Positions 11,434-43,712 of a stretch of 64,000 bases of DNA are shown here, piece after piece. The stretch is from positions 62,001 to 126,000 of the forward strand of contig JAIXOU010000100.1 of assembly GCA_027486585.1 (NCBI GenBank), given 5' to 3'. The stretch comes from Verrucomicrobiaceae bacterium (GTDB taxonomy: Bacteria; Verrucomicrobiota; Verrucomicrobiia; Verrucomicrobiales; Verrucomicrobiaceae). Numbering within the stretch: position 1 is the stretch's first letter; the number at the start of each line of letters is the position of its first letter. The translations under genes and the position numbers were made by a program. Below the pieces are notes generated by a model. That model did not search any database. It had not been told where the DNA came from and was given only the letters and a program-made list of their open reading frames with translations.

Positions 11434-11472
11434 TGGCGTCTCGCGACGACCTCCATGGATAGATCAGGCTAG
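11434..11472. repeat. 38-nt intergenic repeat, copy 1 (second copy at 43225-43262)
   Basis: The stretch from GGCGTCTCGC to GGCTAG matches 43225-43262 without gaps at 32 of 38 positions, and all six differences are transitions. In both places it spans the stop codon of a minus-strand gene and runs into its 3' flank. A short stem CGTC/GACG around a TCGC or TCGT loop is kept in both copies. At 43 kb it is the right end of a larger structured element; here only this end is present. Confidence 0.6.
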
Positions 11473-12462
11473 AATGGGTGCCTGTGTCAGAATCTTGTCC
11501 AAGCCATTGAGGCAATACGCCCAATGAATAGGCAGATCTGATAACGACTCTTGATATCCAGCGGCAGCTCGACCACCAATGATTAAGGCGGTCGTCTCCG
11601 GCAGGATTTTCCGAAGCTGTCTGACTTTATCTTCAATTGCCGGGCATTTTTCAGGATAAACAAGGCTTAGAGCGACAGCACGGGCCTTCCGTGCAGAGGC
11701 GCAAGCGGCGATTTCCTCAATGGGTAGATTGGGGCCAAGATAGGTGACTTTCCACCCCAGGTCACGAGCTGAGGCAGCGACCAGCATCGCACCCAATTCA
11801 TGCACTTCACCGGTTGGTGTCGTGATGACAAGTTCAGGAGCGTTTTCCGCTATCTGACTTCCAGGCACTGGCATCATGAGCACTTCACGAATGACGTTGG
11901 TGGCCAAATGCTCCTGCCCAGGACGCAGATTCCCGGCTTGCCAAGACTCGCCAATGGTTTGGATCAAAGGGCAAATGACATGATGCAACATGCCGCGCTG
12001 TCCTAGCTGCTGACGGGCGCGACTCAGAAGATGATGCATGACCTCACTGTCAAAGGCCTTTGAGGCAGCCATGCAGAGATCGACAAACTGCTTCGGCTCC
12101 TCCAGCGGCTTGGAGTCAGATATTGCGGCAGCCTTTTTCCCTTTGGGCAACAGGCTGCGTTGCAAATGATCATCGAGTAGCTGTTCGAGTTCGCTGGTGG
12201 GCAGTTTAGCTACGTTGCCGATTCGATGTCCATTTTCAGTCAGTTGGCGGAGGATTTTCAGCCTCTTGATGGCCTCTTCACAATACAGACGGCGATTACT
12301 CTCAGTGCGGGTGGGGCTCATGGCCCCATAGCGCCTTTCCCAGATACGAATGACGTGGGCACTGAGACCTGAGAGGTGGCTGGCCATTTGAATTGCGCAG
12401 GGCATAGTAGCTGGTAGTTGATTGAGTCCGAATTGCTGAGTATAGGAAAAGTCGTCGGGCAC
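11464..12462 (-). CDS. CarH/LitR-like MerR regulator with B12-binding domain
   Basis: The 332-residue product has an N-terminal MerR winged HTH (about 22-85; HVIRIWERRYG and NRRLYCEEAIKRLKILRQL). A helical bundle follows (about 120-190) and then a Rossmann cobalamin-binding domain (about 208-325). Trp174 and Glu184-His185 form W-x9-E-H, and Glu219-x-His221-x-x-Gly224 is the lower-ligand motif; both characterise CarH, the adenosylcobalamin-dependent light-sensing repressor. His221 would be the lower axial ligand. The residue after Trp174 is Gln, whereas Thermus CarH has a His there that ligates cobalt after photolysis, so the photochemistry may differ. No carotenoid gene is nearby. It is divergent from spmAB across 70 bp holding two inverted repeats, which suggests autoregulation or control of spmAB. 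Confidence 0.87.
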   Translation of the reverse strand: MPDDFSYTQQFGLNQLPATMPCAIQMASHLSGLSAHVIRIWERRYGAMSPTRTESNRRLYCEEAIKRLKILRQLTENGHRIGNVAKLPTSELEQLLDDHLQRSLLPKGKKAAAISDSKPLEEPKQFVDLCMAASKAFDSEVMHHLLSRARQQLGQRGMLHHVICPLIQTIGESWQAGNLRPGQEHLATNVIREVLMMPVPGSQIAENAPELVITTPTGEVHELGAMLVAASARDLGWKVTYLGPNLPIEEIAACASARKARAVALSLVYPEKCPAIEDKVRQLRKILPETTALIIGGRAAAGYQESLSDLPIHWAYCLNGLDKILTQAPILA

Positions 12463-41289: not shown

Positions 41290-42906
41290 ATGAATCATTC
41301 ATTTCTGTCGCGTCGTCGTTTCATCTCTCATTCGATTGCAGCTTCGACCTTAGTAGGCGCTGCTTATGGAGTGGGCGGTGATACTGCTGACATCTGTGTT
41401 TATGGCGGCACCGCCAGCGGGGTGATGGCAGCTGTGACAGCGGTTAAGCAAGGCTGCACCGTCGTGATTATTGAGCCGAGTCGATGGCTGGGCGGCATGA
41501 CAGGTGGTGGCTTGAGTCATGTGGACTGGGGACGTGAGAAGGCGGTCGGTGGAACTGCTTTGAGCATCCTATCGAAAAACTATGACGATGCCAAGTATCG
41601 CGAGGTCTTCTTGTCGTTGGTGAAGAAATATCGCATTCGCGTCATTTATGAACATCGTGTCTCATCGGTGGTTAAGGAAGGTGCGAACATACTCAATATG
41701 GTTCTGGATCATGCGCCGCCTGATGCCCGAGGTTGTCCAGTCGCTACAGCGACAAAGCCAAACGCAATGACGATCAAGGCGAAGGTCTTTATCGATTGTT
41801 CCTATGAAGGCGATCTCATGGCACGAGCGGGCGTGAGCTATACTTGGGGCCGCGAGAGTCGAGATGAGTATGGGGAATCGCTCGCTGGCGTGCGGCCTAA
41901 CCTCGCTGTGTATGACATTGATCCGTATGTGACGCCGGGTGATCCCAAGAGTGGACTGTTGCCTTTCATCCAAGACATGAAACCGCAGCCAGAAGGCAGC
42001 GCGGATCGGTTGACAATGGGTTATGGCTTCCGCTGGAAGTTTAGCAAGGATCCAGATCGTATCCCGATTGATCCGCCAGAGAACTACGATCCCAAACAGT
42101 TTGAGTTGTATCGCCGTGGCTTTAAAAACAAGGCTGGGATTGACCTGGGCCGCCGCATGAAGGGTAAGCTTGGGTTCTTTGAAGAGGCGGGTGGTCGCAT
42201 TCACTCGATCGGACAGGGGAATCTTGCTCGGGCGCTGCTAGCCCCAACAAACTATGGCAGTAATGCTGACTATCCCGATGGCGATTACGCTACCCGCGCT
42301 CGTATTTGGAAGGCTGATCAGGAATTCATGCGAGGCATGACGCACTTTTTGCGCACCGACGACTGCGTGCCTGATAAGTTCAAGCAACTCGCGGCCGAAC
42401 TTGGTTTTCAGCGTGGCATCTTTGACGAAACAGGCGGATGGCCGCATCAGCTCTATGTGCGCGAGGCTCGCCGCATGAGGTCCGAGTATGTCCTGACTCA
42501 GAAGGACCTTGAAGGCAGCACCAATCCTGAGGATAGCATCGGCCTCGCTTCGTATGGTGTGGATGATTGGCCTTATGCTACCTATGCACTGGACGGCAAG
42601 GTCGCACTCTACGGCGGCGAGTTTTCCATGCTGTATCTCGACAGCAAACACGAAGGTATTTATAAGATCCCGTATCGTGCGATCACGCCAAAGCAAAGCG
42701 AGTGCACCAACCTTCTCGTTCCAGTCTGCGTGAGTGCAAGCCACATCGCTATGACCTCCATTCGCATGGAGCCTGTCTGGATGATTCTAGGCGAATCCGC
42801 AGGCGTCGCCGCAGGGATGGCTGTGCGTGAAAGCATGCCTGTGCAAAGGGTTCCGTATGCGAGGCTTCAAGAGAAGCTCCTGGTCCTGAAGCAGAAACTA
42901 GCCTGA
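41290..42906 (+). CDS. Tat-exported FAD-dependent oxidoreductase (FAD_oxidored/xanthan-lyase-like family)
   Basis: The 538-residue product has a twin-arginine signal (SRRRFISHSIAASTLVGAA, Arg-Arg-Arg at 8-10), so it is probably exported folded with its cofactor. The FAD-binding start ICVYGGTASGVMAAVTAVKQG (about 36-56) with EPSRWLGGMTGGGLSHVDWG is typical of the FAD_oxidored family (PF12831), common in Planctomycetes and Verrucomicrobia and often annotated as xanthan lyase-like. FIDCSYEGDLMARAGVSYTWGRES and LLVPVCVSASHIAMTSIRMEPVWMILGESAGVAAGMA are the other family blocks. The substrate is unknown, perhaps a sugar. A perfect inverted repeat sits just upstream. It has no co-directional partner. 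Confidence 0.85.
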   Translation: MNHSFLSRRRFISHSIAASTLVGAAYGVGGDTADICVYGGTASGVMAAVTAVKQGCTVVIIEPSRWLGGMTGGGLSHVDWGREKAVGGTALSILSKNYDDAKYREVFLSLVKKYRIRVIYEHRVSSVVKEGANILNMVLDHAPPDARGCPVATATKPNAMTIKAKVFIDCSYEGDLMARAGVSYTWGRESRDEYGESLAGVRPNLAVYDIDPYVTPGDPKSGLLPFIQDMKPQPEGSADRLTMGYGFRWKFSKDPDRIPIDPPENYDPKQFELYRRGFKNKAGIDLGRRMKGKLGFFEEAGGRIHSIGQGNLARALLAPTNYGSNADYPDGDYATRARIWKADQEFMRGMTHFLRTDDCVPDKFKQLAAELGFQRGIFDETGGWPHQLYVREARRMRSEYVLTQKDLEGSTNPEDSIGLASYGVDDWPYATYALDGKVALYGGEFSMLYLDSKHEGIYKIPYRAITPKQSECTNLLVPVCVSASHIAMTSIRMEPVWMILGESAGVAAGMAVRESMPVQRVPYARLQEKLLVLKQKLA

Positions 42907-43258
42907 TCTATGTCACGATTTTTCATCGGTTTAGAAGTCGGCATTCAGGGTGGTGGCATGGCTGCTTCAGTGGCTCGTGAGCACTTCGCGGGCGCATCCG
43001 CTTGGTAGAACCGCTGTCCGCCTTCTGAGTGACCTTTTGTTTTCACTTCACAAATGCCGTCGGTTTCGGAATAGCATCCTTAACTTGACCTATTCATGAA
43101 ACGCTACTGCGACTTGCTGCAAGCTCACATTGGCATTGTTGGGCCTGCTTTGAAAGGCATCGAGCATTTACTAATGCACTCAGCCTTTCAAAACTACGCC
43201 CGCCTTGCCACTGCGGGCTTTCGAGGCGTCTCGTGACGACTTTCATGAATAGATTAGG
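42907..43258. other. Intergenic region with structured element, no gene
   Basis: The 352 bp between the exported flavoprotein gene and the next minus-strand gene hold no convincing open frame. The first 180 bp look unremarkable. The rest (43089-43252) is a structured element annotated separately. Confidence 0.6.
43089..43252. repeat. 164-bp element with perfect 12-bp terminal inverted repeats and internal hairpins
   Basis: CTATTCATGAAA (43089-43100) and TTTCATGAATAG (43241-43252) are exact inverted repeats bounding the element. Inside are CTTGC-T-GCAAG near 43110; a two-tier hairpin TTTGAAAGGC (43149-43158) with GCCTTTCAAA (43183-43192), enclosing GCATT-TACT-AATGC (43164-43177); and GCCCGC (43198-43203) with GCGGGC (43213-43218). 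The right end continues into the 38-nt repeat found also at 11434-11472. The architecture fits a miniature mobile element or a structured RNA. No coding frame. Confidence 0.6.
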
Positions 43259-43262
43259 TTAG
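43225..43262. repeat. 38-nt intergenic repeat, copy 2
   Basis: This is the partner of 11434-11472, with six transitions in 38 bases. It overlaps the right terminal repeat of the 164-bp element and the stop codon (TAA, 43259-43261) of the following minus-strand gene. A shorter, degenerate likeness (TTTTTCATGAATA followed by TTAGG) is seen at about 63145-63168. Confidence 0.6.
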
Positions 43263-43633
43263 GCTGGTTGGAGTTCAGGCTCCCAATCTTCTTTTCCGGT
43301 GCCGACGCCAATGAGTTCTTTTTCTTCTGCCTCCTCGCTGTCGGTTTGAAGGGGGGCGAAACGCTCGCTGCGGAAGCCAAGTTCCTGCTTGAGGCTACTG
43401 TGGGGATCGTCAGGATTTTGCAGCTCTTTTAAAAGCAGCAGAATGTCGAACTCCGCATCCGTGAGCTGGATCTCAGCATCATCATTGACTGAAAATTTGG
43501 GATTGGATCGTCCGGCTGCCATGGAGCGGACTGTGTAGATCCGGTCCTTCTTTGGCAGAGCCGTGTAAAGATCATAGACCCAGGGCTCGAATTGATCATT
43601 GATACAGACGACTTTTTGACCGGTTTGGAACAT
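43259..43633 (-). CDS. Conserved-looking hypothetical protein, 124 residues
   Basis: The product starts MFQTGQKVVCINDQFEPWVYDLYTALPKKDRIYTVRSM, like short SH3-like beta domains that begin with a G-x-K-V-V-C-I-N/D segment. An acidic stretch and then ELGFRSERFAPLQTDSEEAEEKELIG follow. No signal, helix or enzymatic motif is seen; probably cytoplasmic. The function is unknown. Its start lies a few bases from the phased repeat array B, and its stop lies inside the 38-nt repeat, so both ends touch repeated DNA. Confidence 0.7.
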   Translation of the reverse strand: MFQTGQKVVCINDQFEPWVYDLYTALPKKDRIYTVRSMAAGRSNPKFSVNDDAEIQLTDAEFDILLLLKELQNPDDPHSSLKQELGFRSERFAPLQTDSEEAEEKELIGVGTGKEDWEPELQPA

Positions 43634-43639
43634 AACGTG

Positions 43640-43712
43640 GTTGTTGGTGGTTTGCGGTGGTTTGGTAAATAATCGTCAACAATTGCAAAGGACTGTCAGC
43701 AAATTGCAAACT
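43640..43712. repeat. 10-bp-phased inverted/direct motif array (copy B)
   Basis: Plus-strand GTTGTTGG, GTTTGC and GTTTGG start at 43640, 43650 and 43660. GTCAACA, GCAAAGG, GTCAGCA and GCAAACT then start at 43675, 43685, 43695 and 43706. The spacing is 10 bp (one step 11), and the first group is in inverted orientation to the second, as in copy A at 1170-1290. It fills the gap between two minus-strand genes and begins 6 bp upstream of the 43633 start codon. Confidence 0.6.

Follow-up and report, generated by a model that had tools for sequence, protein, structure and literature searches.

Between two convergent genes of a Verrucomicrobiaceae bacterium lies a long, nearly symmetric foldback, and the question is whether this DNA is a mobile element, a structured RNA or a part of the 3' end of the gene beside it. 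All three had been proposed in a sequence-only reading of the window, that is, the whole stretch of DNA analysed here (64,000 nucleotides of contig JAIXOU010000100.1). The element is very probably a non-autonomous MITE of the IS1380 type, which would be moved in trans by an IS1380-family transposase, insert at YTAR and be tolerated at stop codons. An unexplained hairpin would thereby become a member of a defined mobile family with known ends, a known target and a likely mobiliser.

Extent and parts of the element

An element with perfect 12-bp terminal inverted repeats had been placed at 43089-43252. The repeats are indeed present (CTATTCATGAAA at 43090-43101 and TTTCATGAATAG at 43241-43252), but the start had been set one base early and the interval as a whole was slightly too small. 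In an ungapped search the inverted repeat reaches 21 nt at 86% complementarity (43081-43101 with 43241-43261), and alignment with related copies sets the ends of the full element, YTAR included, at 43080-43262. Its parts and the adjoining gene are as follows.

43080..43083, plus strand: left copy of the target site, TTAA (YTAR), from the comparison of copies; the duplication is shown by empty sites at other copies
43084..43101, plus strand: left terminal inverted repeat CTTGACCTATTCATGAAA, from the comparison of copies
43084..43258, no strand assigned: element proper, 175 bp, non-coding and near-palindromic, very probably a MITE, from aligned copies
43164..43177, no strand assigned: apical hairpin GCATTTACTAATGC, alignment columns 86-99
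43241..43258, minus strand: right terminal inverted repeat, reverse complement CCTAATCTATTCATGAAA, from the 12-bp repeat and aligned copies
43259..43262, minus strand: right copy of the target site, CTAA, whose TAA serves as stop codon for the 43259-43633 gene
43259..43633, minus strand: neighbouring gene of 124 aa, without a Pfam match and conserved in the genus; its stop codon is the insertion target

The majority form of the left terminal repeat among 28 copies is CCTGAnCTATTCATGAAA, and the stem of the apical hairpin is partly preserved through paired changes among copies. The two target copies of the window element are unlike by one base (TTAA left and TTAG right, as read on the plus strand). 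The body of the element contains no internal ORF of at least 80 aa.

A multi-copy family within one genus

The genome to which the window belongs (G000; 6.5 Mb, 147 contigs) gives 16 matches to the element, which represent 14 distinct places, since one copy accounts for two rows as separate pieces and a palindromic copy is matched a second time on its opposite strand. Among 37 genomes searched, two of which (G000 and G023) were scored for part of the first-look candidates, matches occur in eight, all of the same genus (8 of its 24 genomes, the own one included), and none of the 13 genomes from other genera of the order has a match. The comparison with related genomes reveals a multi-copy sequence, and the picture of a single-copy, non-conserved stretch without covariation does not apply, as the element repeats in the genus and covaries across 28 copies. 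Being 175 bp long, non-coding and present at 14 places in its own genome, it has the general features of a MITE. When at most 3 mismatches are allowed, the terminus pattern is found in 27 of 48 genus genomes, many of them having a single 3-mismatch match that may be due to chance; a reversed control pattern gives one match each in 10 of the 48. By terminus count, G000 (32), G050 (33), G048 (26), G013 (9) and G002 (6) are clearly multi-copy, with 0-1 matches per strand to the reversed pattern.

Full copies have a near-fixed length of 182-185 bp and unrelated flanks, and deleted or enlarged forms of 34, 56, 93, 128, 245 and 290 bp are found as well. In four copies (L015, L145, L224 and L227, 245-311 bp) the stem includes roughly 60 bp or more of additional sequence. 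In G000 and G048 a repeat of a separate family, AATGGCTGACCGCCGATTTGCATCC or a near variant, occurs next to copies or within them (L013, within 2437-2620; L018, within 1203-1370; L125, right flank, after 1240). Plasmid records contain no match to the element at an E limit of 0.01, and no viral contig carries the exact 32-base inner stretch. One IMG/VR contig of 9519 bases (L238) has an exact terminus near its end and may be a host fragment.

Target duplication and empty sites

YTAR stands at each end of 33 of the 49 non-redundant insertions for which both ends could be seen, a set that also takes in other phyla and some weak pairs; the two 4-mers are identical in 24 of those 33. Non-palindromic targets appear as direct repeats in five cases and as inverted repeats only in one (p 0.22, a small sample).

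Alleles without the element were sought by means of the flanks in 48 genus genomes, with 6 first-look candidates scored per genome, and six insertions were compared with such alleles. Target duplication and empty sites, as expected of a MITE, are clean at two of them: the copy on C51 corresponds to a single TTAA in G003, and the copy of G013 (G013:C184) to a single CTAG in G002. Two other comparisons (L011 and L124) are not clean and show no YTAR; the former reads CTCG with a 2-bp gap in the G050 allele, and the latter lacks the motif against the alleles of G000, G003 and G050. Near the site of L127 (the G048:C709 copy) the G000 and G050 alleles read CTAA and TTAG in gapped alignments, and the left 4-mer of L127 itself is ATAG. 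For the window site, with 10 first-look candidates scored, the gene side alone can be aligned with G003, which amounts to half an empty site. Absences in these two comparisons, capped at 6 and 10 candidates, carry little weight.

Symmetry of the foldback

The description of the element as hairpin-rich holds for both strands. Folding of 43089-43252 gives -66.5 kcal/mol for one strand (z -6.70) and -72.9 kcal/mol for the other (z -6.58), 0 of 200 dinucleotide shuffles being as good in either case, and 43080-43262 folded as DNA has a z of -4.99, again with 0 of 200 shuffles as good.

Covariation was assessed in 28 full-length copies, hand-picked after sister-genome orthologues, partial copies and copies with inserts had been dropped; L032 and L033, apparently one insertion common to two genomes, were both retained. 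Across these copies 92.3% of the cells of the 49 pairs examined do pair, falling to about 42% when the partner is slid by one column, a control that is flattering because the structure was obtained by RNAalifold on the same alignment, with three outer pairs added. Changes on both sides occur in 23 of the 49 pairs and in 123 cells, against 41.1 cells in shuffles, none of 500 of which is as high; these counts are not independent events, as the copies are kin and served to derive the structure. The number of further pair types (52 against 49.5, with 92 of 500 shuffles as high) is the sole covariation measure of five that does not exceed the shuffles.

The mismatches within the stems comprise 41 G-T and 46 A-C combinations (p 0.67). 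This absence of strand bias makes it less likely that the sequence is selected as RNA of one strand, and the strand-neutral covariation accords better with a palindrome at the DNA level than with an RNA from a single strand. It also calls for caution in general, as covariation alone is no proof of a functional RNA. Furthermore, the orthologous insertion in the sister genome G050 has lost 55 bp, the apical hairpin included, and that part of the locus therefore is not under strong constraint.

Stop codons and neighboring genes

YTAR contains TAA or TAG, and stop codons can therefore be tolerated as targets. The window element supplies the stop codon and the 3' end of the 43259 gene. The orthologue of this gene in G003 ends at a plain C-TAA, without the element, which speaks against the idea of a 3' regulatory element that would be an inherent part of the gene. 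A fragment of a second copy is present elsewhere in the window:

11435..11472, plus strand: fragment of a second copy, right end only (E 2e-5)

This fragment provides the TGA at which the minus-strand gene at 11464-12462 ends. In its CATGA form the terminus has stops in all three frames on entering the element, so that an insertion near the end of a gene alters only a few residues.

A collection of 138 YTAR termini comprises 36 that abut a clear long ORF (at least 150 codons) and 102 without a clear ORF. In 23 of the 36, the long ORF running into the terminus has its stop at the target TAR, where one third would be expected (p 0.00017). This frame test is stronger than the comparison with background sites given next, and either a target preference or counter-selection of broken genes would account for it. 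Gene calls by simple ORF rules place the end of an adjacent long ORF exactly at the target stop in 16 of the 49 insertions, compared with a background of 12 of the 71 non-coding YTAR sites of the window (p 0.051, borderline). Stop codons are tolerated and frequent targets, a preference for them being not proven. A simple rule for annotation follows, as the element determines where some genes of these genomes end, and the stop-codon target provides a testable reason for the survival of insertions at the 3' ends of genes.

The probable link with IS1380 elements

In GTDB species genomes, a 20-base terminus pattern occurs in 62 stretches, as against about 2 expected by chance at equal base frequencies. 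The record titles refer to Verrucomicrobia, Kiritimatiellae, Lentisphaerae, Chitinivibrionales, Calditrichia, Marinilabilia, Pseudomonadales and Granulosicoccaceae, and, Marinilabilia excepted, these genomes are metagenome-assembled. In one of them, from Kiritimatiellae (L184), facing termini 1628 bp apart enclose a 456-aa transposase, and this protein passes the IS1380 models (PF13701, 494.3 bits; NF033539, 369.5 bits at a cut-off of 180). Relatives of this transposase are present in 8 of the 20 genomes behind 20 chosen loci. The terminus is found at both ends of a complete IS1380 gene in L318 (0 and 3 mismatches), whose element is that of L184, and in L323 (4 and 0 mismatches), and at both ends of a gene remnant in L325 (3 and 3). 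L319, L320 and L322 have it at one end (0, 4 and 3 mismatches, respectively), the two ends seen in L321 are weak (5 and 4 mismatches) and no better than its shuffled control, and L324 is a transposase relative with the terminus at neither end. Five plasmid relatives were also inspected: three (L269, L272 and L273) have strict YTAR at both ends, L271 has CTAT, and no such ends were found in L270. L272, which is annotated as an IS1380 element, has CTAG on both sides and similar ends.

The element thus has terminal repeats in common with an autonomous IS in other genomes (L184/L318 and L323), and it combines IS1380-type ends with a 4-bp YTAR target. As the same ends bracket complete IS1380 transposase genes in two other bacteria, an IS1380-type MITE is the most likely identity, and the mobiliser is probably a transposase of this type, to judge from the compared sequences. 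The miniature mobile element that had been considered is supported by its multiple copies, defined ends, target duplication, empty sites and ends common to IS1380 elements.

A partner transposase was not found in the same genome, nor was one with matching ends in the 48 genus genomes. The own genome has no relative of the L184 transposase at E 1e-20, and tblastn finds no significant similarity between L184 and the single weak PF13701 match there (39.6 bits, cut-off 34.7). The 48 genus genomes contain one distant relative, 33% identical, whose ends do not match. No relative was confirmed in viral contigs, and two phage records carry distant relatives. The host partner would so be absent from the draft assemblies, extinct or too divergent, and the IS1380 link therefore rests on common ends and target in other lineages.

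Many termini are found in the Lentisphaerae MAG AM-2014 bin-3387 (L185, L187, L188, L194, L207, L213, L231 and L235), and several of them coincide exactly with the stop of a long ORF. In Marinilabilia salmonicolor a 182-bp element (L204:3929-4110) has the same terminus and is flanked by CTAA left and right, and the genome also has an IS1380 gene bearing two internal stops (L321).

Alternative explanations

The extreme fold scores on both strands and the strong covariation (23 of 49 pairs, 123 against 41.1 cells, 0 of 500 shuffles) are what a conserved structured RNA, or a 3' element acting at the RNA level as a one-strand transcript, would lead one to expect. However, Rfam gives no match up to E 1 over 42900-43700, G-T and A-C mismatches are about equally numerous and favor neither strand, and the sister-species copy in G050 has lost its apical hairpin. 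On these grounds the structured RNA that had been suggested is not supported; relatives moreover have the same sites without the element, and an RNA acting from one strand seems hardly plausible. RNA from either strand may nevertheless be involved. A mobile element could also have been adopted as a bidirectional terminator or a stabilizer of mRNA 3' ends, as hypothesized for REP/BIME repeats. Transcripts of both strands would fold into a long hairpin, the element is placed between two convergent genes, and 16 of the 49 insertions have an adjacent long ORF that ends exactly at the target stop. A simple scan for a GC stem followed by a T run, however, detects no terminator-like site inside 43080-43262, so that an intrinsic terminator is not supported; 42880-43480 as a whole has 2 such sites, shuffled versions averaging 1.1 (sd 1.2). 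In G050 the corresponding insertion has a degraded hairpin, and the stop-codon placement can be explained by the YTAR target together with the removal of gene-breaking insertions. An adopted role of this kind is possible but unlikely. In the reading favored here, the window copy is probably no regulator but a passenger in decay.

The nature of the mobiliser could also be questioned. The IS5 group targets YTAR as well, and a MITE moved by this or another transposase with a similar target, its match to IS1380 ends being due to convergence, would be in line with the lack of an IS1380 partner in the genus assemblies. On the other hand, the 21-bp terminus flanks complete IS1380 genes, exactly or nearly so, in two unrelated lineages, and the 62 stretches with the 20-base pattern far exceed the 2 or so expected by chance. 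Such a convergence therefore appears quite improbable.

A model for mobility

For the IS1380-type MITE that we favor, it can be imagined that an IS1380-family transposase recognizes the ends CCTGAYCTATTCATGAA in trans, its action being inferred. The element would enter at YTAR with duplication of 4 bp, as shown at two other copies. At a stop-codon target the gene would keep its stop on one side, while the element duplicates the stop on the other, as happened at the 43259 gene. Paired changes would keep the foldback symmetric in lineages that spread, and what probably counts for mobility or copying is the palindrome in the DNA, or that its two arms are equal.

A broader and more tentative idea is that IS1380 elements and their MITEs form a widespread class, for which the YTAR target gives stop codons a preferred or privileged place as sites of insertion and whose palindrome is actively maintained as DNA; we regard this as conceivable but rather doubtful. 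If true, genes would survive through the stop duplicated by the insertion and the other-frame stops at each end, and a maintained palindrome would predict a hairpin-dependent step in transposition or copying.

Relation to known small mobile repeats

Among the papers found on IS1380 elements and on MITEs, none describes this family in its title or in the opening of its abstract. Elements of the IS1380 family (NF033539; PF13701; for example, the ISAzs25-type element of the Azospirillum plasmid pAB510b) have ends that start with CC after a YTAR-type 4-mer, like the element. The ends of both have a TATTCA-like core in common and are near-identical in L184 and L323. The element differs by having no transposase gene and by its size, 175 bp against about 1.6-1.7 kb.

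RUP and Correia elements use a TA target and an IS630-type partner, and differ from the element in this respect. RUP, Correia elements and TIMEs are small mobile repeats with terminal inverted repeats, as the element is, some with all-frame stops, and TIMEs are distinguished from it by a Tn3-type partner and 5-6-bp repeats (PMC2229807, PMC4133298). Bacterial MITEs with an IS parent include MITEAba12 with ISAba12 (PMC6382973) and MITEPye1 with IS1182, the latter being predicted to fold into long stem-loops (PMC11578231). Both resemble the element in being short and non-coding, with IS-type terminal repeats and target duplication. The element differs in its IS family and host, in a target motif that can be a stop codon and in a parent IS that was not found in the host genus. 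It is of an ordinary kind, with a neat targeting detail.

REP repeats are palindromes of 20-40 bp with a GTAG or CGTC tag at one end and proposed roles at gene ends (PMC3733652). The element is likewise a palindromic repeat with a proposed role at gene ends, but a symmetric one of 175 bp with target duplication, and its size and symmetric ends do not fit a short palindrome with a one-sided tag.
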